Shown: positions 12,575-32,396 of the stretch, one piece after another
How the letters are laid out: each line of letters begins with the position of its first letter
Position numbering within the stretch: the stretch's first letter is position 1
Assembly: GCF_030403505.1 (NCBI RefSeq)
Contig: NZ_JAUEMJ010000006.1
Coordinates: 255,126 to 319,125, forward strand
Source of the DNA: Glycomyces tritici
Lineage (GTDB): Bacteria > Actinomycetota > Actinomycetes > Mycobacteriales > Micromonosporaceae
DNA: 64,000 nt
Direction: 5' to 3'
The notes under the pieces: generated by a model
What the model saw: the letters and a program-made list of their open reading frames with translations, nothing else
Databases searched by the model: none
Told to the model about the DNA's origin: nothing
Program-made: the position numbers and the translations under genes

Positions 12575-14818
12575 TTACGCGAGCTGCTCGCGCACCGTGC
12601 GGGCCGCGGCGACGAGGCCTTCCAGCGACGGCCGGACCTCCTCGTAGCGGCGGGTCTTCAGGCCGCAGTCCGGGTTCGCCCACACCCGCTCCGGGCCGAG
12701 CGCGGCCACGGCGAGGCGCAGCGCCTCGGCCATGTCGTCGGCGGCCGGGACGCGAGGCGAGTGGATGTCCCACACGCCCGGGCCGACCGCGCTGCGGTAG
12801 TTCGCGCGGTCGAGGTCGGCGAGGACCTCCATCTTCGAGCGCGAGGCCTCGATCGAGGTCACGTCCGCGTCCAGGGCGGCGATCGCGTCGATGACCTCGC
12901 CGAACTCCGAGTAGCAGAGGTGCGTGTGGATCGCGGTCTCCGGGCGCACGCCGGCGGTGGCGAGGCGGAACGAGCGGGTCGCCCAGTCCCGGTACGCCGC
13001 ACGGGAAGCCGCGCGCACGGGCAGGAGCTCGCGCAGCGCGGGCTCGTCGACCTGGATGATCGCCGTCCCGGCCGCTTCGAGGTCGGTGACCTCGTCGCGC
13101 AGTGCGAGCGCGACCTGGTCGGCCGTCTCGGACAGCGGCTGGTCGTCGCGCACGAACGACCAGGCCAGGATCGTCACGGGCCCGGTGAGCATGCCCTTGA
13201 CGGGCTTCTCGGTGAGCGACTGCGCGTACGAGGTCCACTCGACGGTCATGGGGGCCGTCCGCGTGACGTCCCCGTAGAGCACCGGCGGGCGGACGCAGCG
13301 CGAGCCGTAGGACTGGACCCAGCCCGCGGCGGTGGTCGCGAAGCCCGTGAGCTGCTCCGCGAAGTACTGCACCATGTCGTTGCGTTCCGGCTCGCCGTGC
13401 ACGAGCACGTCCAGTCCGAGCTTCTCCTGCTCGGCGATGACGGCGGCGACCTCGGCCTTCATGCGGGCCTTGTAGTCGGCGTCGATCATCAGCCCGCGGC
13501 GGTGCGCGGCGCGGGCGTTGCGCAGCTCGGCGGTCTGCGGGAACGAGCCGATGGTCGTGGTCGGCAGCACCGGGAGCGGCACGCGTTCGGCTTGGGCCGC
13601 TTGGCGTTCGGCGTACGGGATGCGCCGGTCGGCGTCGGCGCCGAGGGCGGCGAGCCGCGAGCGCACCGAGTCATCGCGCCATGCATCCGGAGCTTGGGGC
13701 CGCGCGGCGCGCGCACCGTCCGGGTCCGCGAGCGTGGTGATCTCGCGGAGCTTCTGGCGGGCGAAGGCCAGGCGCTCGATCAGCGCGGCGGGCAGCTCGT
13801 GCTCGGCGTCCAGGTCGACGGGGACGTGCAGCAGCGAGGAGGACGAGGAGACCCCGACGCGGTCGCTGATGCCTTGCAGCCGTGCAATGTCGGCGCCCGC
13901 ATTGGCAAGATCGGTGCGCCAGATGTTGCGGCCGTCGACCACGCCCGCGAGCAAATATGTTTCACGTGAAACATCCAGTGCCTCAAGTGCTTCCAGGTCA
14001 CTGCGGCCCCGGACGAGGTCCAGCGCGATGCCTGCGACGCCCGCCTCCAGCAGCACCGGCAGCGCCTCACCGAACGGGCCGTAGCCGCCCGCGACGACGA
14101 TCTCGGTGTCGGCGGTGAGCCGCCGGTAGGTCGCGGCGACGGCCGCGAGCTCGGCCTCGGACCGGTCGGCGCAGAGCGCGGGCTCATCGACCTGAACGAG
14201 CGCGGCCCCTGCCTCCCTGAGCGCGGCAAGCAGCTCGACATAGACCGGAACGAGGTCGTCGAGCCGGTCGAACGGCGTGAACTCGGCAGGAGCGTCCTCG
14301 CTCGCCTTGGCGAGCAGCAGGAACGAGACCGGGCCGAGCAGCACGGGCCGGGCGTCGAGGCCGCGTTCCTTCGCTTCAAGGAACTCGGCGACGGCCTTGG
14401 CGGGCTTGGCGTCGAACTCGGTGTCGGGCCCGATCTCAGGCACCAGGTAGTGGTAGTTCGTGTCGAACCACTTGGTCATCTCGAGCGGCACGGCCGCCTC
14501 GTCACCCCGCGCGGCCGCGAAGTAGGAGGCCAGTTCGGTCTCGCGGCGATGCCGAGGAGCGAGCGCATCAACAGCCACGATCGTGTCGAGCACGTGGTCG
14601 TAGAGCGAGAACGTCCCGGACGGGACCGTGTCGAGCACCGAGAGGTCGTCGAGCATTCCGGAGCGGACGGACGCGGCGGCGGCTTCGAGCCCGGCGGCGT
14701 CGAGCCGCCCGGACCAGTGGGCCTCGAGCGCGCGCTTGAGCTCGCGGTTCGGGCCGATGCGCGGGTAGCCGAGTGCGGTGGCCTGCGGTTTCGCGGGCAC
14801 GCTGGTAGGTGTGTTCAT
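12575..14818 (-). CDS. metE: Cobalamin-independent methionine synthase MetE
   Basis: 747 residues, full length. It transfers a methyl group from 5-methyltetrahydropteroyl-triglutamate to homocysteine. The zinc ligands are intact: H633 and C635 (HTHLC), E657 (SIEASR) and C718 (NPDCG), each eight positions below the E. coli numbering. Both barrels are present (N-terminal TALGYPRIGPNRELKRALE). The ATG at 14818 follows GAGGGAA. A cobalamin riboswitch fills the leader, consistent with shut-off when B12 is available and MetH can act. A perfect parS site lies within codons of the N-terminal barrel. Confidence 0.97.
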   Translation of the reverse strand: MNTPTSVPAKPQATALGYPRIGPNRELKRALEAHWSGRLDAAGLEAAAASVRSGMLDDLSVLDTVPSGTFSLYDHVLDTIVAVDALAPRHRRETELASYFAAARGDEAAVPLEMTKWFDTNYHYLVPEIGPDTEFDAKPAKAVAEFLEAKERGLDARPVLLGPVSFLLLAKASEDAPAEFTPFDRLDDLVPVYVELLAALREAGAALVQVDEPALCADRSEAELAAVAATYRRLTADTEIVVAGGYGPFGEALPVLLEAGVAGIALDLVRGRSDLEALEALDVSRETYLLAGVVDGRNIWRTDLANAGADIARLQGISDRVGVSSSSSLLHVPVDLDAEHELPAALIERLAFARQKLREITTLADPDGARAARPQAPDAWRDDSVRSRLAALGADADRRIPYAERQAAQAERVPLPVLPTTTIGSFPQTAELRNARAAHRRGLMIDADYKARMKAEVAAVIAEQEKLGLDVLVHGEPERNDMVQYFAEQLTGFATTAAGWVQSYGSRCVRPPVLYGDVTRTAPMTVEWTSYAQSLTEKPVKGMLTGPVTILAWSFVRDDQPLSETADQVALALRDEVTDLEAAGTAIIQVDEPALRELLPVRAASRAAYRDWATRSFRLATAGVRPETAIHTHLCYSEFGEVIDAIAALDADVTSIEASRSKMEVLADLDRANYRSAVGPGVWDIHSPRVPAADDMAEALRLAVAALGPERVWANPDCGLKTRRYEEVRPSLEGLVAAARTVREQLA
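13958..13973. other. parS centromere site (ParB binding)
   Basis: The 16-bp sequence TGTTTCACGTGAAACA is a perfect palindrome and matches the bacterial parS consensus at every position. It lies inside metE, where it encodes VSRET. ParB proteins load at such sites, which cluster around the replication origin. No parA/parB genes are in the window. Confidence 0.85.
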
Positions 14819-14849: not shown

Positions 14850-14871
14850 ACCGCGCGCGGTCGCGCGCGGT
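14850..14871 (-). promoter_or_regulatory. GC-rich palindrome between riboswitch and metE
   Basis: A near-continuous palindrome (ACCGCGCGCG with its complement, 2 bp apart) lies just downstream of the riboswitch core on the minus strand and about 35 nt before the metE start. It could belong to the expression platform, either as a terminator-like stem or as a partner of the last aptamer helix. That role is inference. Confidence 0.4.
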
Positions 14872-15058
14872 ACGCGGGCAGGTATTCGGACTCGAGGGCG
14901 CTTGTTCTCCTAGTCCCCACCGCTTCCCAGGTTCCGGGCCCAGTGCTCATGGCGGGTTTCGTTCCCTCTCACCGCTGCGGGGCAGTCCTGGATTCGCACC
15001 AGATTCCCTCTTAGCCGGGGCGGCGTGCACCGCTCCGGAACCAGCGTCGGAACCGATG
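14866..15058 (-). promoter_or_regulatory. Cobalamin (B12) riboswitch of metE
   Basis: Read on the minus strand the leader contains the conserved cobalamin aptamer blocks in order: GGTTCCGGAGCGGTGC, GGGAATCTGGTGCGAATCC, GACTGCCCCGCAGCGGTGA, GGGAACGAAACCCGCC, GCACTGG, GGAAGCGGTGGG and the 3' segment GAGTCCGAATACCTGCC. The spacing to metE (about 50 nt) is normal. B12 binding is expected to reduce metE expression; whether this acts on transcription or translation is not visible. The exact 5' limit is approximate. Confidence 0.95.
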
Positions 15059-15137
15059 GTACGGCCGCGCAGGGGCTTGCGCCCCGAACGAGGCCGCACT
15101 GTGGGACGAGCGCGGCTCGGTCCCTCCGGCGAATGGG

Positions 15138-22019: not shown

Positions 22020-22382
22020 TCAGCCGGTGACGAGGTGTGCGAGCGCGAGCCCGAGGAGGCCCGCGGCGAGGCCGCCCGCGAGGTTCGCGGCGACGTTCCA
22101 CAGCGCGTGGCGCCAGCGGCCGGACTCGACGAGCAGCAGCGTCTCGTAGGAGAGTGTCGAGTACGTGGTGAGCGCCCCGCAGAAGCCGGTGACGAGCAGC
22201 GCCGTCCAGTCCGCGTTCGTCACGGCGACGGCGAGGAACACGGCGAGGCCGGACCCGGCGACGTTGACGACCAGCGTGCCCCAGGGCAGGTAGCGGCCCG
22301 CGTAGTGGGCGATGACGAGGTCGGTGAGGAAGCGGGCGGGCGCGCCGATCGCGGCCCCGGCGGCGATGAGGAGGAGTGTCAT
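22020..22382 (-). CDS. crcB: Fluoride channel subunit FluC/CrcB (second of pair)
   Basis: 120 residues with four predicted helices. The GxxxARF start (GAAIGAPARFLTDL), the PWGTLVVNVAGS block and the GFCGALTTYSTLS motif are FluC signatures; the last supplies the Phe-box/Ser polar track region. Its ATG overlaps the preceding crcB stop (ATGA). Two neighbouring unequal FluC genes are usual in Gram-positives and make antiparallel heterodimers that expel fluoride. Confidence 0.93.
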   Translation of the reverse strand: MTLLLIAAGAAIGAPARFLTDLVIAHYAGRYLPWGTLVVNVAGSGLAVFLAVAVTNADWTALLVTGFCGALTTYSTLSYETLLLVESGRWRHALWNVAANLAGGLAAGLLGLALAHLVTG

Positions 22383-22936
22383 GCGCGGCGCCGGACGAGT
22401 CTGCGGGTGGCGTACATGCCGATCGCGGCGGCCAGAAGCGCTGCGGCCATCGTCGCGAACGCGTAGACGACCGCGAGCGCGGTCGCTCCGGCGCTCGCGG
22501 TGCGGCCGATGTCGAGGATGTAGGTGGAGAAGGTGGTGAAGCCGCCGAGGATGCCGATCCCGACGAAGGGACGGAGGCGGCCGAGGCCGGGCGCGACCTC
22601 GGTGACCGTGATCATGAGGACCCCGATGAGCAGGCCGCCCACGGTGTTCGCGGTGAACGTGGCCACCGGGAACGCGCCGGGAGCAGCGGGGAAGGCCACG
22701 GTCAGCCCGTACCGGGCGAGCGCGCCGATCGCGCCGCCCGCGGCGACCGCGGCCAGGGCCGGTGCGGAGGCGGCGCGCAGCGCGCCGCGCAGGGAGGGGC
22801 GGTGGTGCGGAGACTGGCCGTTCAGGGACGGGCGGCGCCCGGGTCGGCGGTCCCGCGGTGGACGCTGCGGTCCGCGGTCCCGCGGCGGGCGGCGCTGGGG
22901 CTCGCGGTCCCTCGGCGGGCGGCTGGTGTCGGGCAC
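22379..22936 (-). CDS. crcB: Fluoride channel subunit FluC/CrcB with Arg/Pro-rich N-terminal tail
   Basis: 185 residues. The channel domain (from about residue 58: AAGGAIGALARYGL, TFTANTVGG, GILGGFTTFSTYILD) is complete. It is preceded by an unusual ~50-residue tail made of degenerate PPRDRxPQR units, very basic and probably disordered on the cytoplasmic side. The GTG at 22936 lies 6 nt after a TAGATT -10 element, which suggests a leaderless mRNA and supports the long form. No fluoride riboswitch is visible upstream. Confidence 0.85.
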   Translation of the reverse strand: MPDTSRPPRDREPQRRPPRDRGPQRPPRDRRPGRRPSLNGQSPHHRPSLRGALRAASAPALAAVAAGGAIGALARYGLTVAFPAAPGAFPVATFTANTVGGLLIGVLMITVTEVAPGLGRLRPFVGIGILGGFTTFSTYILDIGRTASAGATALAVVYAFATMAAALLAAAIGMYATRRLVRRRA

Positions 22937-22942
22937 GCCACG

Positions 22943-22948
22943 AATCTA
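22943..22948 (-). promoter_or_regulatory. -10 element of the crcB pair
   Basis: TAGATT on the minus strand, 6 nt before the GTG start of the first crcB gene. A 6-bp inverted repeat (CCGCGG/CCGCGG around GAATAT) lies immediately upstream at about 22953-22970. Confidence 0.5.
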
Positions 22949-23000
22949 GTCGCCGCGGATATTCCCGCGGACCGGGCCGTATGCGGTCTCTCACTGACCC

Positions 23001-23030
23001 TTGCGCCCGATATGCGAGTGCCGCTAGCCT
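23001..23030 (+). promoter_or_regulatory. Promoter of leader peptide and symporter
   Basis: TTGCGC (23001-23006), an 18-bp spacer and TAGCCT (23025-23030) form a good actinobacterial sigma-70-type promoter. It sits 8 nt before the ATG of the leader peptide, so transcription starts at or very near that codon. Confidence 0.65.
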
Positions 23031-23038
23031 TGTGAGCG

Positions 23039-23122
23039 ATGCGCTACACGATCACGAACCAGCACCTGACCCGGAGACGTCACCTCGACTTCTGCCGCGT
23101 GTCCACCGTGCTCTGTCGTTAG
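23039..23122 (+). CDS. Cysteine-containing regulatory leader peptide (27 aa)
   Basis: A 27-codon reading frame starting MRYTITNQHL and ending RRRHLDFCRVSTVLCR. The C-terminal half matches the actinobacterial leader-peptide family with the pattern RRHxDLCRVxxxxCR found before sulfur and cysteine genes; two Cys codons are TGC (position 19) and TGT (position 26). The promoter places its ATG at or near the transcript 5' end. Known mycobacterial relatives work by ribosome stalling when cysteinyl-tRNA is low, which exposes the downstream ribosome site. Five nt after its stop begins the strand that can pair with the symporter ribosome site. Confidence 0.85.
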   Translation: MRYTITNQHLTRRRHLDFCRVSTVLCR

Positions 23123-23126
23123 CACC

Positions 23127-23254
23127 GAACCTCTTCACCGGCGGGCTCGCCGAAGACTCCCCCTTTTCTCACGCTGGCCTCGAGCCACCCCAGCGTTCCC
23201 CAGAAGACCGCAGCCGGGCCGTGCCCTGCTGTCTGCCCAGAATCCAAGAGGTTC
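23127..23254 (+). promoter_or_regulatory. Putative translation attenuator hiding the symporter ribosome site
   Basis: GAACCTCTT at 23127-23135 is perfectly complementary to AAGAGGTTC at 23246-23254, and the second arm contains the ribosome binding site AAGAGG of the symporter (ATG at 23258). A ribosome stalled at the last Cys codon of the leader would cover the first arm and release the second. The pairing is seen; the regulation is inferred from the known cysteine-attenuation systems. Confidence 0.6.
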
Positions 23255-23257
23255 ACC

Positions 23258-24616
23258 ATGTCCGCAACCGCGGCACCAAACGACTCCAAGCAGCGCAAGC
23301 GCTTCAAGATCCCGTTCGCCTGGCAGCTCCTGATCGGCCTCGCGCTCGGCCTCGTCCTCGGCTACGTCGCCCGCCAATGGTCGGTCGCCTGGCTCGGCAC
23401 CACCCTCGAGACGATCGGGACGCTGTTCGTGCAGCTCCTGTTCCTCATCGTCCCGTTCCTGGTGTTCACCGCGATCGTCGCGTCGATCGCCAACCTGCGC
23501 AACCTCGCGAACGCGGGCCGCCTGGTCGCCAAGACCCTCGGCTGGTTCGCGCTCACCTCGGCCATCGCCGTCGCGATCGGCCTTGCCATCGGCCTGACCA
23601 CCAACCCGGGCGAGGGCGTGACCCTCACCAGCTCCGCCGCGGCGCCGGAGACCACCGGCTCCTGGACGGACTTCCTGACCGGGATCATCCCCACCAACGT
23701 GGTCGACGCGTTCGTCAACGTGAACGTGCTGCAGATCGTGTTCCTCGCGATCATCGTCGGCGCGGCCGCCGCGAAGCTCGGCGACAAGGCCGAGCCGTTC
23801 CTGAAGTTCAACGAGTCGGCGCTGGCGCTGATCCAGAAGGCCCTGTGGTGGGTGATCCGCTTGGCGCCCATCGGCACCGCTGCCCTCATCGGCAACTCGG
23901 TGTTCGCGTACGGCTGGGACCTGCTGGAGCCGCTCGCGGTGTTCAGCATCGACATCTACTTGGGCGCGCTCATCGTGATGCTCGTGGTCTACCCGGTGCT
24001 GCTGCGGCTGGTCGCGAAGGTGTCGCCGGTGCAGTTCTTCCGCAAGGCGTGGCCGGCGATCCAGTTCGCGTTCGTCTCGCGCTCCTCGGTGGGCACGCTG
24101 CCGCTGGCGCAGCGGATCGTGACCGAGCGGCTCGGCGTCGCCCGCGACTACGCGTCGTTCGCGTCGCCGTTCGGGGCGACCACGAAGATGGACGGCTGCG
24201 CCGCGATCTACCCGGCGATCGCCGCGATCTTCGTGGCGCAGGTGTACGACGTGCCGCTGGGCATCCAGGACTACCTGCTCATCGCGTTCGTCTCGGTGAT
24301 CGGTTCGGCGGCGACGGCGGGCCTGACCGGCGCGACCGTGATGCTGACCCTCACGCTCTCGACGCTGGGCCTGCCGCTCGAAGGCGTGGGCCTGCTGCTG
24401 GCGATCGACCCGATCATGGACATGATCCGCACGGCCACGAACGTGACCGGGCAGATGGTGGTGCCGGTGATCGTGGCGAAGTCGGAGAAGATCCTCGACC
24501 GCGAGGTGTACGACGCGGCTCCGGTGCCGCTGGACGCCGAGTCGGCCTTCGGTGGCGACGCCGAGGAGCCGGAGGAGGCGCCCCGCAGGGGCGAGCCTGC
24601 GCTGCAACCCGCTTAA
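23258..24616 (+). CDS. Dicarboxylate/amino acid:cation symporter (DAACS); possibly a cystine importer
   Basis: 452 residues of the GltP/DctA/TcyP superfamily. Hairpin-1 serine motif SRSSVGTLPLA and the TM7 block FGATTKMDGCAAIYPAIAAIFVAQ are clear; the HP2 and TM8 region follows (GSAATAGLTGATVML, DPIMDMIRTATNVTGQ). These transport aspartate, glutamate, C4-dicarboxylates, serine or cystine with Na+ or H+. The substrate cannot be read from the motifs alone, but the Cys-type leader peptide upstream makes cystine or cysteine the best guess. The C-terminal tail is acidic. A UUCG-loop terminator follows. Confidence 0.9.
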   Translation: MSATAAPNDSKQRKRFKIPFAWQLLIGLALGLVLGYVARQWSVAWLGTTLETIGTLFVQLLFLIVPFLVFTAIVASIANLRNLANAGRLVAKTLGWFALTSAIAVAIGLAIGLTTNPGEGVTLTSSAAAPETTGSWTDFLTGIIPTNVVDAFVNVNVLQIVFLAIIVGAAAAKLGDKAEPFLKFNESALALIQKALWWVIRLAPIGTAALIGNSVFAYGWDLLEPLAVFSIDIYLGALIVMLVVYPVLLRLVAKVSPVQFFRKAWPAIQFAFVSRSSVGTLPLAQRIVTERLGVARDYASFASPFGATTKMDGCAAIYPAIAAIFVAQVYDVPLGIQDYLLIAFVSVIGSAATAGLTGATVMLTLTLSTLGLPLEGVGLLLAIDPIMDMIRTATNVTGQMVVPVIVAKSEKILDREVYDAAPVPLDAESAFGGDAEEPEEAPRRGEPALQPA

Positions 24617-27599: not shown

Positions 27600-29108
27600 C
27601 TAGGCCGCGACGGCCTCGCGGCCCTTCATTGCCCGGCGGCGGGCCAGCGACACCAGCGGCCACAGGGCGATCACGGCCACCACCGCGTACACCGTCCACG
27701 CCACCGGGCCGCCGATCAGGCCCGAGAGGTCGCCGCCCGAGAGCTGCAGCGACATGCGCGCCTGCCGTTCGGCCATCGGGCCGAGGATCACGCCGACGAT
27801 CATCGGCAGCATCGGAATCCCGAAGCGCCGCATCGCGAGCCCCGCCAGACCGAGCGCGAGCAGGATGTACAGCTCGAACGCCTGGCCGCTCGTGGCGTAC
27901 GCGCCCATCGACGCGAAGAACAGGATGCCCGCGAACAGGTACGGCTTGGGGATGCGCAGCAGCTTCACCCACATCGGGATGAGCGGCATGTTGAGCACCA
28001 GCAGCATCGCGTTGCCCACGAAGAGCCCGGCGATGAGCGTCCACACCAGCGCCGACTCCTTCTCGAACAGGAGTGGCCCCGGCTGGATGCCGTAGGTCTG
28101 GAACGCCGCCAGCATGACCGCCGCCGTCGCGTTGCACGGCAGGCCGAGCGCGAGCATCGGCACGAGTGTTCCTGCGGCAGAGGCGTTGTTGGCGGCCTCC
28201 GGGCCCGCGACGCCCTCGATCGCGCCGTTCCCGAACTCGTCCTTGTGCTTGGAGAGCCTGCGTTCAGTTACATAGGACAGGAACGTGGGCACCTCGGCGC
28301 CGCCGGCGGGGACCGCGCCGAACGGGAAGCCCAGCGCCGAGCCGCGCAGCCACGGGCCCCACGAGCGCCGCCAGTCGCTGCGGCCCATCCAGACCCGGCC
28401 GACCGGCACGATCTCGTCCTTGCCGTTGCGGCGGCGCGCGGCCGTCCACAGTGCTTCACCGACCGCGAAGGCGCCGACGGCGACCACGACGATGTCGATG
28501 CCGTTCGCCAGCTCCGGGACGCCGTACGTCAGCCGCTGCTGGCCGGTCACCGCGTCGATCCCGATGGTGCCGATGACGAGGCCGAACAGGAGCGACGCGA
28601 AGCCGCGGATGCGTGAGGACCCCAGCACGGAGGCCGTGGCGATGAGCGCGAGCATCATGATCGCGAAGTACTCGGGCGCGCCGAGGCCGATCGCGAACTG
28701 CACGGTGATCGGCGTGACGAACACGAGCGCGACCGTGGCGATCGTGCCGGCCACGAACGAGCCGATGGCCGCCGTCGCCAGGGCCTGGCCGCCGCGCCCG
28801 TTCCGGGCCATCTTGTAGCCCTCGAGCACGGTGACCACCGAGGACGACTGGCCGGGCGTGTTCAGCAGGATCGCGGTGGTCGAGCCGCCGTACATGCCGC
28901 CGTAGAAGATCCCGCCGAACATGATGAACGCCTGGGTCGGCTCCATGCCGTACGTGATCGGCAGCAGCAGCGCGATAGCCATGGCCGTGCCGAGGCCCGG
29001 CAGCATCCCCACGGCCGTGCCGATGGTGACGCCGATGAGCGCGATGAGCAGGTTCCCCGGCGTCAGGATCGCGCCGAAGCCGTCGATGAGGGCGTTGAGG
29101 TTCTCCAT
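27600..29108 (-). CDS. tctA: Tripartite tricarboxylate transporter, large permease TctA
   Basis: 502 residues, the usual size, with about eleven helices. Family blocks include [25 protein letters not shown] near the N-terminus, [23 protein letters not shown] and [17 protein letters not shown]. With TctB and TctC upstream it forms a periplasmic-binding-protein-dependent secondary transporter for citrate or related carboxylates. Order tctC-tctB-tctA on the minus strand, divergent from a CitA/CitB-type two-component system that probably controls it. Confidence 0.95.
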
Positions 29109-29117
29109 GCCCGCCCC

Positions 29118-29642
29118 CTACAGAATGCCCTGGAGCACGCCGGCCGGCAGGCCGAGGCCCAGGCCGATCGCGAACCCGTAGAACGTGGCCAGGCCGAGCG
29201 CGACGGCCGCGGCCAGCGTCAGGAAGTACCGGCGCGAGCCGAGCACGATCGCGCAGCCCCAGAACAGGAGCGACCCGGAGATCACCCAGCCGAGCCAGTC
29301 GATGAGCAGCGCGTTCGCGATGAACACGGCGCAGAGCAGGCCGATGGTCTTCCAGTCGTACCGCTCGCCCGCGTTCGCGCCCTCGTCCTCGCCGTGCCCG
29401 CCGCGCAGGGCGTCGAGCGCGTAGCAGACCGCGACGGCGACCAGCAGCACGCCGAGGATGATCGGCACCGGCTTCGGGCCGATCGGGTCGTTCGAGGCGG
29501 AGAACCCGCCCAGGCGCGAAGCGTCGACGACCACGAGCACGCCGAGGACGGCGAGGAACCCGCACACCCACAGCTGCGCGAGGTCGCGCTTCGGCGCGGA
29601 CGCCTCGGCCTCCTCGACCGCGGTTTCGCTGTCGACGGTCAT
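29118..29642 (-). CDS. tctB: Tripartite tricarboxylate transporter, small permease TctB
   Basis: 174 residues with four predicted helices after a ~25-residue acidic N-terminus; the DxxGFSASNDPIGPKPVPIILG region fits TctB. The ATG overlaps the tctC stop (ATGA). It precedes tctA by 9 bp. Sequence is weakly conserved, as in all TctB proteins, so position is the main evidence. Confidence 0.9.
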   Translation of the reverse strand: MTVDSETAVEEAEASAPKRDLAQLWVCGFLAVLGVLVVVDASRLGGFSASNDPIGPKPVPIILGVLLVAVAVCYALDALRGGHGEDEGANAGERYDWKTIGLLCAVFIANALLIDWLGWVISGSLLFWGCAIVLGSRRYFLTLAAAVALGLATFYGFAIGLGLGLPAGVLQGIL

Positions 29643-30637
29643 GCCAGGCCCAGTTCCTGGAGCGTCGCCGCCACCGTCGCGTCCTGCTCGGTGAGGAAGG
29701 CGCCGAAGTCGTCGCCGGTGACGAACGCGTCGATCCAGCCCTGCTTGTCGAGCTCCTCCTGCCAGGCCGCCGACTCGTGCACCGCGGTGAGCGCGTCGAT
29801 CCAGGACTGCCTGTCGGCGTCGCTGATGCCGGGCGGGGCCACCCAGCCGCGCCAGTTCGTGAACTCCAGGTCGATGCCGGACTCGACGAACGTCGGCGCG
29901 TCCGGGACGACGTCGACCCGCTCGGCGCCGGAGACCGCGAGGACCCGCAGCTGCCCGGCCTCGATCTGGTCGATGAACTCGCCCACGCCGCTCGCGCCGA
30001 AGCTGATCTTCTCGCCCAGCAGCGCCGGCAGGAGCTCCCCGCCGCCGTCGTACGAGACGTAGTTGACCTGCGCCGGGTCGATGCCCACGGCCTTCGCGAG
30101 CTGCATCGGCAGCAGGTGGTCGGGGCCGCCGGGGGAGGAGCCGCCGCCCGCGGTGACGCCCTTGAGGTCGGCCGACCAGGCCGCCACCAGGTCGTCGATG
30201 GTCTGGAACGGGGAGTTGACGGGCACGACGATGGCGCCGGACTCCTCGACGATCTTCGCGATCGGCGTCGTCCCGGTCAGCTTCGCCTCGGAGTTCTGGG
30301 TGTACGAGGCGCCCACGACGCCCAGGCCCATCTGCATGGCGAGCTCGCCGTTGCCCTCCTCGCCCACGACCCGCTGGAGGCCCACCGTGCCGCCCGCGCC
30401 CTCGAGGTTGAACACCTCGACGGCCTTGGCGATCTTCTCGTCCTCCATGATCCTGGCGATCGAGCGGGCGGTCGTGTCGTAGCCGCCGCCGGGGCTGTTG
30501 GGCACCATGATCCGCAGACCGGTGAGGGGTCCGCCTTCGCCGCCGCCGTCGTCGGCGGTCATGCCGCAGGCCGAAGCCGTGGCAGCGAGGGGGACGGCCG
30601 CCGCGGCGCTGAGGAAGGCCCTCCGGTGAAATTTCAT
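29639..30637 (-). CDS. tctC: Tripartite tricarboxylate transporter substrate-binding lipoprotein TctC
   Basis: 332 residues from the ATG at 30637. A signal peptide ends ATASAC (lipid-modified C24). The mature part is of the BUG/TctC family: IMVPNSPGGGYDTTARSIARIM, VFNLEGAGGTVGLQRV and SYDGGGELLPALLGEKISFGASG are its binding-cleft segments. It captures a carboxylate outside the membrane for TctAB. It heads the operon and faces the sensor kinase gene across 73 bp. Confidence 0.93.
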   Translation of the reverse strand: MKFHRRAFLSAAAAVPLAATASACGMTADDGGGEGGPLTGLRIMVPNSPGGGYDTTARSIARIMEDEKIAKAVEVFNLEGAGGTVGLQRVVGEEGNGELAMQMGLGVVGASYTQNSEAKLTGTTPIAKIVEESGAIVVPVNSPFQTIDDLVAAWSADLKGVTAGGGSSPGGPDHLLPMQLAKAVGIDPAQVNYVSYDGGGELLPALLGEKISFGASGVGEFIDQIEAGQLRVLAVSGAERVDVVPDAPTFVESGIDLEFTNWRGWVAPPGISDADRQSWIDALTAVHESAAWQEELDKQGWIDAFVTGDDFGAFLTEQDATVAATLQELGLA

Positions 30638-30710
30638 CGTCGTTGCTCTTTCATTTCGAGGGTGCTGTGAGAGACGATGGTCACCCCGACGCGGCCCCGG
30701 CGTCAGCCTT

Positions 30711-32396
30711 GTGTCCGTAACGATCATTGAGTTCATTGTGTTCAGGAAGCGCCCTACGCTCGCCGGTCAGCTGCTCGCCTCCCAGCTGACGGTGATCCTC
30801 CTCGTGCTCGCCGCCGTCGCGGGCGTCTCGCTCGCGCAGTCGCAGGCGGTGTTCGCGATCGAGCAGGGCCGCCGGGTCACGCAGCTCGCCGAGAGCCTCG
30901 CCGCCTCCGACCTGGTGCGCGGCCGACTCCCCGCGCCGGCGCCCGCGCAGACCCTCGCGCCGGAGATCCAGTCGAGCCAGGAGCGGTGGCTGGTGTCCTC
31001 CGTGACGATCGCCGACGCTGAAGGAGAAGTCGTCGCCTCCACGAACCCGCTGCTCATCGGCACCGTCCTGCCGCTGGGGCCGGGCGTGCTCGACGGGCGC
31101 GGCTGGCGGGGCGAGATCGAGATCGGCGGCCGCACCGAGCTCGTCGGCCAGGCCCCCGTGCTCGGCTACGCCGACGGTGACGGCGACGACGGCGACCCGA
31201 TCGTGCAGCTCGGCGTCGCCGTCGTCGGCCAGGAGGTGCCCTCCCCGGCCGCGCTGCTCGCCGGGGACAGCCCCGACCTGCTGCTCTACCTGGGGATCGC
31301 CTCGGCATTGGGCATCGCCGGGTCGTGGCTCCTGGCCCGGCGCATCAAGCGCCAGACGTTCGGCATGGAGCCGCGCGAGATCGCAGGGCTCGCCGAGCAC
31401 CGCGAAGCGATGCTCTACGGCATCGCCGAAGGGGTCGTGGCCCTCGACCCGCAGCACCGGATCACCCTCGTCAACGACGTGGCCCGCCGCCTCCTCGACC
31501 TGCCCGAGAGCGCCGTCGGCGCGCTCGTGGACGAACTCGGGCTGACCGCGCGCCTGCGGGACGTGCTCACCGGCGCCGCCGCGGGCGCCGACCAGGTCGT
31601 CCTCCAGGGCAACCGCGTGCTCGTCGTCAACCGGATGCCCGTCGCCAAGGACGGCCGGTCCCTCGGCTCGGTCGCCACCCTGCGCGACCGCACCGAGCTC
31701 GCCCAGCTCGAACGCGACCTCGGCTCGTTCCGGTCCACCGCCGAGGCCCTGCGCGCCCAGGCCCACGAGTTCGACAACAAGCTCCACACCATCTCCGGGC
31801 TCATCCAGATCGGCGAGCAGGACGAGGTCGTGGCCTACATCGACGCCCTCAACCGGCACCGCCAGTCCCTCGAACTGCACATCGCCGAACCCATCCGCGA
31901 CAAGGCGATCGCCGCGCTCCTCATGGCGAAGTCCGCGCAGGCGGCCGAGCGGCGGGTGCGGCTCGACATCGTCGCCGAGAGCGCGCTCGCGCCGCTCGAC
32001 CCCGAGGACTCCGCCGACGTCGGCACCGTCCTGGGCAACCTCGTCGACAACGCCGTCGAGGCCGCCGCCGGGCACGCCCGCGACGCGCCGCTGCCGCGCC
32101 GCAGCGACACGGACGCGTGGGTGGCTGTCGCCGTCAGCGAGCACGAAGGGGCCGTGCGCATCACGGTGCACGACTCCGGCCCCGGCGTCCCCCCCGAGAC
32201 CGCCGGGGAGGTCTTCGAGCACGGCTACACGACCAAAGCCGCAGCTGGGGAGCACGGCATCGGACTTGCGCTCACGAAGCTCGTGTGCGAGCATCACGGC
32301 GGTTCGGTGGCTCTGGAGCACACCGAGCAGGGCGCCCGCTTCACCGCGGTCCTGCCGCTCCTCCACGAACCCGCTCCGACCCCGTCCGCCCGGTGA
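30711..32396 (+). CDS. Sensor histidine kinase of the CitA/DcuS family
   Basis: 561 residues if started at the GTG at 30711; a GTG at 30738 (552 residues, beginning at FRKRPTLAGQ) is also plausible. Order: TM1 (about 20-43), extracytoplasmic sensor domain (45-185), TM2 (about 188-208), PAS (220-310), SPOB_a dimerisation box with HEFDNKLHTISGLIQIGE as the phosphoacceptor, HATPase with N-box NLVDNAVEAA and G-boxes. CitA/DcuS kinases sense external carboxylates. Adjacent tctCBA is the likely target. Confidence 0.92.
   Translation: MSVTIIEFIVFRKRPTLAGQLLASQLTVILLVLAAVAGVSLAQSQAVFAIEQGRRVTQLAESLAASDLVRGRLPAPAPAQTLAPEIQSSQERWLVSSVTIADAEGEVVASTNPLLIGTVLPLGPGVLDGRGWRGEIEIGGRTELVGQAPVLGYADGDGDDGDPIVQLGVAVVGQEVPSPAALLAGDSPDLLLYLGIASALGIAGSWLLARRIKRQTFGMEPREIAGLAEHREAMLYGIAEGVVALDPQHRITLVNDVARRLLDLPESAVGALVDELGLTARLRDVLTGAAAGADQVVLQGNRVLVVNRMPVAKDGRSLGSVATLRDRTELAQLERDLGSFRSTAEALRAQAHEFDNKLHTISGLIQIGEQDEVVAYIDALNRHRQSLELHIAEPIRDKAIAALLMAKSAQAAERRVRLDIVAESALAPLDPEDSADVGTVLGNLVDNAVEAAAGHARDAPLPRRSDTDAWVAVAVSEHEGAVRITVHDSGPGVPPETAGEVFEHGYTTKAAAGEHGIGLALTKLVCEHHGGSVALEHTEQGARFTAVLPLLHEPAPTPSAR

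Follow-up and report, generated by a model that had tools for sequence, protein, structure and literature searches.

A conserved cysteine leader peptide with an obligate UGU codon precedes a probable cystine-type symporter in Glycomyces and other actinobacteria

Introduction

The original account of mycobacterial polycysteine leaderless ORFs that regulate by cysteine is said to be that of Canestrari in 2020. Related mycobacterial Cys leaders work through a mechanism that sequesters the ribosome site. A small ORF has been shown before cysA2/Msmeg_5788 (PMC4633059, excerpt); by its name, this is presumably Ms5788A. Excerpts of two further papers describe mycobacterial polycysteine leaders as regulating in response to cysteine (PMC9031893, PMC9094748), the first stating that translation of the downstream gene is regulated by attenuation and nothing beyond this. 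For Cys leaders, Seliverstov and others suggested an involvement of Rho, which they called a weak prediction (PMC1262725, excerpt).

In the excerpt of a S. lividans reannotation, 8 leader peptides are tabulated, none of them assigned to cysteine or to a symporter (PMC8079986), and the excerpts of PMC13236596 and PMC7790235 hold only references on Cys leaders. As far as excerpts of the open-licence literature go, we recognised no description of a coupling between such a leader and a symporter or of the UGU rule reported below, and the letters of the leader motif and the family names led to no paper in that literature.

The leader described here belongs, to judge by its sequence, to a known actinobacterial kind of Cys leader peptide, and is tied to a probable cystine importer. 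It lies in a 64,000-nucleotide stretch of Glycomyces tritici DNA, the whole of which is called the window; an earlier sequence-only reading of the window had proposed that stalling at the Cys codons of the leader frees a masked ribosome site of the symporter.

Results

The window leader and its promoter

The leader ORF before the symporter (Table 1) is genuine. It encodes MRYTITNQHLTRRRHLDFCRVSTVLCR and, as described earlier, is 27 codons long, Cys being encoded at codons 19 and 26; the two Cys are seven codons apart, the second is encoded by UGU, and the TAG stop (23120-23122) is separated by 135 nt from the start of the PF00375 symporter at 23258. A promoter had also been said to set the transcript start at the leader ATG. 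The hexamers are present, with TTGCG and TANCNT equally placed, within a nucleotide, in 8/8 Glycomyces sequences (by eye), and a start at or within a few nucleotides of the ATG is plausible because the ATG at 23039 sits 8 nt past the -10-like hexamer; a generic sigma-70 scan, however, did not call this promoter. Of the NCBIfam models, NF042934 (putative leader peptide, cis_reg_atten) gave the window leader 19.2 bits, below its cut-off of 27, and leader_Ms5788A gave 26.5 bits, short of its cut-off of 45.

Table 1. Features of the leader and symporter region, in window positions.
Feature	Position	Strand	Basis or remark
Leader promoter, TTGCGC (23001-23006) and TAGCCT (23025-23030)	23001..23030	+	Conserved position in Glycomyces
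Leader peptide ORF, 27 codons and TAG, near-leaderless	23039..23122	+	Sequence, leader-profile scores, relatives
Motif codons L-x-x-R-[RL]-H-[VLI]-D-x-C-R (window: LTRRRHLDFCR)	23066..23098	+	Amino acids constant, third bases drift
Cys26 codon TGT, nine codons after Asp, invariant UGU	23114..23116	+	Leader comparison
C-rich, G-poor spacer, candidate Rho-loading stretch	23123..23245	+	45% C, 24% G
Candidate anti-ribosome-site arm GAACCTCTT	23127..23135	+	9-nt complement of the site region
Hairpin P1, CGGCG..CGCCG	23139..23152	+	Four counted pairs in 8/8 Glycomyces, invariant, no covariation
Hairpin P2, CGCTGG..CCAGCG	23172..23195	+	Covariation in Glycomyces
Symporter ribosome site AAGAGG within the second arm AAGAGGTTC	23246..23254	+	Sequence
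DAACS/SDF symporter with TcyP-like substrate-site loop, probable cystine-type importer	23258..24616	+	PF00375, 355.9 bits; motifs

Elsewhere in the window, two adjoining CrcB-family genes (22020-22936, minus strand), which we take to be of the fluoride channel type, diverge from the leader promoter, and a tripartite tricarboxylate transporter set of the TctA, TctB and TctC families lies at 27600-30736 on the minus strand. A cobalamin riboswitch (14860-15060, minus strand; 97.5 bits) immediately precedes a cobalamin-independent methionine synthase gene (12575-14818, minus strand), which is an ordinary arrangement.

Leader conservation before the symporter

Relatives of the symporter were the best 80 of at least 588 confirmed, each with up to 2 kb of flanking sequence. 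The closest are Glycomyces (L001 is 93% identical in its best segment, P0001 95%), and by record titles the genera with leader-bearing symporters include Glycomyces, Streptomyces, Microbispora, Micromonospora and Nocardia. A strict leader pattern of the type R.H.D[LFY]C, by which the Asp, the first Cys and in part the Arg and His are required, identified a leader before the symporter in 62 of these 80 best relatives in addition to the window. Looser matching found a leader of the same motif in 68 of the 80, so that conservation of the leader in related genomes is supported; the six additional leaders (L010, L030, L057, L060, L062, L071) all have TGT nine codons after the Asp (by reading). Five Kitasatospora-type loci (L016, L019, L025, L049, L072) carry a diverged Cys-bearing variant, mostly AVDxPxxCRxxxC, in which the final Cys codon is TGT. 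No leader was found in the seven others: L020, L021 and L028, which resemble the Kitasatospora variant by eye; L022; L077, with only 151 nt of upstream sequence; and L046 and L063. The last two seem, by eye, to retain the Streptomyces promoter straight before the symporter with the leader absent, suggesting that some species can do without it.

A search of nine of these genomes with PF00375 gave 17 loci: nine belong to the clade of this symporter, seven are DctA-like paralogues, and L130, a fragment, was set aside. The pattern identified a leader in 7/9 of the clade symporters and in 0/7 of the DctA-like paralogues. The two pattern-negative symporters (L119, L120) come from the same genomes as L049 and L060, which themselves have variants.

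In Streptomyces loci including L012, L017, L036 and L070, a repeated CAAAG..CTTTGA..CTCAAAG lies some 80-120 nt ahead of the first Cys of the leader and directly precedes a promoter-like GTGTTAACGT, which gives it the look of an operator. By eye, the repeat is also found in the leaderless L046 and L063.

The same leader class before sulfur genes

Matches to NF042934 at E up to 1 were found in 12/12 genomes, at least 6 of which exceeded the cut-off, and in a phylum-wide set at least 11 of 149 genomes matched at E up to 0.01, at least 6 of them above the cut-off; both searches scored part of the candidates, which makes the counts lower bounds. Control genomes matched in 6/14 cases at E up to 1, never above the cut-off, and had no match at E up to 0.01; weak matches alone thus mean little, since six controls match at the looser threshold. 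Among four symporter leaders of relatives that were scored, that of Microbispora (L013) exceeds the cut-off with 31.3 bits, and L012 (25.7), L036 (23.7) and L043 (15.5) fall below it.

Of 56 predicted next genes (28 + 28), 30 were scanned; which gene counted as next was decided mechanically and may be wrong in some cases. Sulfite reductase (5), rhodanese (4) and PALP genes with the cysteine synthase fold (4) were the most frequent, followed by sulfatase, NMT1-type binding protein, luciferase-like monooxygenase, cysteine dioxygenase and SDF genes (2 each). NMT1-type and luciferase-like proteins often take part in sulfonate use. The remaining seven were POR, SBP_bac_3, SBP_bac_5, Peptidase_M14, an acyl-CoA dehydrogenase, a response-regulator domain and, for L101, nothing; some of these next genes, such as POR and Peptidase_M14, have no evident sulfur role. 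The leader type had been called known before actinobacterial sulfur genes, and the sulfite reductase, rhodanese and PALP genes agree with this. Of the two SDF genes, one is a known symporter locus (L099) and the other is new: it follows L145, a leader that the NF042934 search turned up independently in a different genome.

Two leaders of the family, L106 and L142, read VHMDLxRYAGCVC, retain the UGU and precede cysteine dioxygenase genes; L143 and L147 probably do likewise.

An invariant UGU codon and a conserved peptide

Alignment of the leaders revealed a single codon that hardly varies. The Cys nine codons after the motif Asp (Asp+9, codon 26 in the window) is encoded by TGT in 63/63 symporter leaders (62 relatives and the window) and in 47/49 further leaders found by the NF042934 model, one of which is L145 with its SDF gene; TGC is found only in L088 and L138, whose peptides agree. 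The 49 were counted after dropping the symporter loci already counted (L086, L099, L102, L109), leaders in which the motif Cys is absent (L139, L140) or the Asp is replaced (L144), and weak matches (L092, L104). None of the search patterns requires Cys at Asp+9, and all leaders were chosen at the protein level, by pattern or profile, where codons are invisible. The background favours TGC strongly: 81 symporter ORFs have a TGC:TGT ratio of 142:2, other downstream ORFs one of 91:6, and 35 coding-like ORFs of the window one of 68:5. At the other Cys positions of leaders found by NF042934, TGC occurs 57 times and TGT 17 times; among the symporter leaders, 59/63 use TGC for the first Cys, and 24/33 use TGT for a Cys at offset +2 from it. 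From these counts, TGT is enriched across the leaders but fixed solely at Asp+9.

On a quick tree of 81 symporters, onto which the 63 leaders were mapped, the minimum number of changes was 12 for the Asp codon, 11 for His, 9 for Arg-4, 5 each for Leu-7 and Arg+3 (numbered from the Asp), 3 for the first Cys codon and 0 for the Asp+9 codon. Zero against three changes at the two Cys codons is weak evidence when taken alone; the strength of the rule comes from TGT being a rare codon and from the 49 further leaders.

The peptide is conserved alongside the codon. The 63 and 49 leaders align without gaps as L-x-x-R-x-[HA]-x-D-x-x-R-x5-C, with constant spacing, and the window fits this alignment. Leu-7 is present in 63/63 symporter and 46/49 further leaders, Arg-4 in 63/63 and 49/49, and Arg+3 in 63/63 and 48/49; the pattern behind the 63 fixes the Asp and the first Cys and leaves Leu-7, Arg+3 and Cys+9 free. 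The amino acids of the motif are constant while the third codon bases vary, and the nucleotides adjoining the UGU also vary, which makes an RNA motif at this codon unlikely. The distance from UGU to the stop is one codon in the window and 0-5 codons in the symporter leaders. Both Cys codons had been proposed as stall sites, but they are not equal: codon 26 is the universal UGU, whereas just 21/49 of the NF042934-found leaders have Cys where codon 19 stands, and 15/49 have a single Cys after the Asp.

We read these sequences as a sign of selection for the peptide within the motif and for the codon itself at Asp+9. The UGU rule and the peptide conservation together point to stalling at an obligate UGU that would be assisted by the nascent peptide. 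The obligate codon and the constant peptide spacing are, as comparative regularities, newly noticed here, and hold across 112 leaders except for the two with TGC.

The symporter as a probable cystine-type importer

The substrate site of the symporter carries SRSS (HP1) and MDGCAAIYPA (TM7); the counterparts in E. coli TcyP are SRSS and QNGCAGLYPA. The two proteins have in common a (D/N)GCA..YPA motif and, within it, a one-residue loop insertion (GCA) that is absent in SstT, GltP and DctA; this TcyP-like insertion in the substrate-site loop makes a cystine-type importer plausible. The TM8 Arg is kept, as it is in GltP and TcyP, so that the cargo could also be an acidic sulfur compound, for instance sulfocysteine. 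Overall identity is 32% to TcyP versus 29% to DctA and GltP. In a tree of 30 SDF proteins, the leader-type symporters form one group (100/99) and the symporter is not joined with TcyP; the other split has 86/73, with very long branches. Among solved structures, an aspartate transporter matches best. Names among the best 120 of 7088 database relatives are generic (e.g. dicarboxylate/amino acid:cation symporter, sodium:proton antiporter, proton/glutamate symporter), and cystine occurs in none of the named ones.

The TcyP-like loop and the Cys leader together support the earlier suggestion that the carrier is a cystine importer: it is probably one of the cystine type. Cystine or cysteine had been named as cargo, and because E. 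coli TcyP transports cystine, not cysteine (PMC7373191, excerpt), cystine is the better guess.

RNA structure and the C-rich spacer

As the sequence-only reading had it, GAACCTCTT is perfectly complementary to AAGAGGTTC, which includes the ribosome site of the symporter; the arm does follow the leader stop, at a gap of 4 nt and not of 5. A 9-nt complement to the 13-nt site region is rare in dinucleotide shuffles of the spacer (p=0.004, 2000 shuffles), and the minimum-energy fold includes the arm pairing (z -1.85; 8/200 shuffles fold as well), whereas by gapped duplex energies the window pairing is ordinary (p=0.144). The longest exact complement is 8 nt in L001 (p=0.015) and an unremarkable 4-6 nt in the six Glycomyces L002-L007, so that the full arm is seen in the window only and six of seven Glycomyces relatives are without it; across loci, 5/61 reach p<0.05. 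Conservation of the arm pairing is thus not borne out. In the Glycomyces alignment, the arm helix is paired in 58.3% of cells versus 25.0-51.7% when slid, which exceeds column shuffles and may reflect some pairing tendency. Hairpin P2 is paired in 85.9% of cells (slid controls at most 43.7%) with 5/9 pairs doubly changed, from which some of the RNA structure appears real.

The effect of a stalled ribosome was modelled with an assumed footprint that reaches from 13 nt upstream of the first P-site base to 15 nt downstream of it. With codon 26 in the A site, the footprint ends one nucleotide short of the arm, which one or two nucleotides more would reach; with codon 19 it ends far short. The modelled cost of opening the site in the window is 8.88 kcal/mol with no ribosome, 8.65 with a stall at codon 26 and 8.60 with a stall at codon 19, and falls, to 3.97, solely when a ribosome occupies the leader stop codon. 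The claim that stalling at the Cys codons frees the site therefore fails in this model. Over 60 of the 63 loci (L018, L054 and L058 omitted), a UGU stall lowered the cost of opening the site by over 0.5 kcal/mol in 17 and made the site more closed in 14, and for a stall at the first Cys the corresponding counts were 15 and 17; with no consistent effect, unmasking of the ribosome site was rejected as a general mechanism. Duplexes between leader and spacer and between spacer and ribosome site reached p<0.05 in 7 and 10 of 61 loci, respectively (L018 and L054 omitted).

A 1:2/2:3 switch seen by eye in Streptomyces is not claimed because only 1/25 pairs changed on both sides of the consensus fold, which was made from 34 of 35 grouped loci (L058 omitted; 14 other leader loci were ungrouped). 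A terminator scan gave no intrinsic terminator in 22900-23300 of the window, and Rfam gave no match at gathering score at the leader, its four matches being far below.

C exceeds G in 62/62 spacers of symporter leaders (one locus with a spacer of <30 nt was left out) and in 50/50 of the other leaders, as against 45/79 control upstream regions, a control picked by heuristic that is largely promoter DNA and mostly not transcribed. For that reason Rho loading is kept as a hypothesis; the C-rich RNA after the UGU is possibly Rho-loading.

Discussion

On balance, we consider it probable that a ribosome-mediated, cysteine-responsive attenuator controls a cystine-type DAACS importer. As we infer its course, RNA polymerase would start at or just before the leader ATG and ribosomes would translate the 27-codon peptide. 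With plentiful Cys-tRNA, ribosomes would move on past the codon-26 UGU and be released at the stop, the C-rich spacer would lie bare, and the importer would be shut off, most likely via Rho-dependent termination; local structure over the ribosome site could be an extra layer in this species. With scarce Cys-tRNA, a ribosome would stay at the invariant UGU, its halt probably strengthened by the conserved peptide motif in the exit tunnel, and this parked ribosome would shield the start of the spacer, so that the importer is expressed. Points against this reading include the two TGC leaders, the score of the window leader below both curated cut-offs, the leaderless L046 and L063, the next genes of no evident sulfur role and, for the carrier, the tree, the small difference in overall identity and the solved aspartate transporter. 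A further one is the cysteine dioxygenase genes, which a low-cysteine ON switch leaves unexplained; that such genes carry these leaders suggests that the sign of the output may differ by gene. A broader proposal, which we regard as possible and put somewhat short of an even chance, is that the actinobacterial HxDxxR cysteine leaders act as arrest peptides in which conserved tunnel residues act with an obligate UGU nine codons past the Asp, wobble decoding by tRNA-Cys serving as the sensor in place of a Cys run, and that one leader class would control a sulfur regulon including an unrecognised cystine importer.

The nearest competitor is a plain starvation attenuator, in which charging of tRNA-Cys alone matters, the peptide is irrelevant and UGU slows first because it is read by wobble. 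The rarity of UGU in genes together with its enrichment at other leader Cys codons (57:17 TGC:TGT) would suit such a device, as would the polycysteine variants L131 and L132, but it gives no role to Leu-7, Arg-4 and Arg+3, which vary hardly more than the Cys although their codons differ between leaders, to the constant spacing from Asp to Cys, or to the 15/49 leaders with a single Cys after the Asp; we think it rather unlikely. Translational attenuation, with the arm GAACCTCTT masking the ribosome site until a stall at a Cys codon frees it, is to our minds improbable. The perfect 9-nt complement in the window, the 8 nt in L001, the pairing held in the minimum-energy fold and the site sequestration of related mycobacterial leaders all speak for it; against it stand the absence of the arm in six of seven Glycomyces, the modelled Cys stalls that leave the window site closed, where only a ribosome at the stop codon opens it, and stall effects that go both ways over 60 loci. 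Least likely by far is that conservation reflects an RNA or protein-binding site and not a translated leader: P2 covaries in Glycomyces, yet third bases vary across the motif while the amino acids hold, the bases beside the UGU vary, and no Rfam match comes near gathering score at the leader.

Returning to the attenuator with peptide-assisted stalling, it gives a large, generically named family of actinobacterial symporters a testable substrate and regulator, and turns a loosely described set of Cys leaders into a precise hypothesis of a fixed peptide motif with one obligate synonymous codon. If it is true, a single UGU to UGC change, silent in the protein, should alter regulation, which makes this swap a clean test of codon-specific, nascent-chain-assisted attenuation, and databases would be naming a cystine importer merely as a dicarboxylate symporter.

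Comparison with known systems

TnaC has a tunnel motif at a fixed distance from a halt codon near the stop, with a C-rich Rho site downstream, and halts at high tryptophan. The window leader is alike in layout (motif, distance, C-rich downstream stretch); the signal differs from the high tryptophan of TnaC, and no homology is claimed. Leaders of the Ms5788A type and other mycobacterial polycysteine leaderless ORFs are alike in being near-leaderless short Cys ORFs before a sulfur gene, whereas the window leader has no run of Cys codons, its two Cys stand apart with the second an obligate UGU, and its gene is a symporter. The Cys leaders of Mycobacterium, Propionibacterium and Bifidobacterium likewise are without terminators, and Rho sites were suggested for them (PMC1262725, excerpt); they differ in having Cys runs near the stop, and the word symporter is absent from that text. 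The uORFC-8-2 before cysS of Rhodobacterales is a further attenuator made of an uORF with Cys codons, but with UGC dominant, an intrinsic terminator, and another phylum and gene (PMC8632094, excerpt). Further counterparts are NF042934, which has the same 19-residue motif as the window leader and whose cut-off the Microbispora leader exceeds while the window leader scores under it, and, for the carrier, E. coli TcyP, annotated as a cystine/sulfocysteine symporter, which the tree does not join with the window symporter and which has the SRSS and GCA-loop signatures in common with the window symporter.
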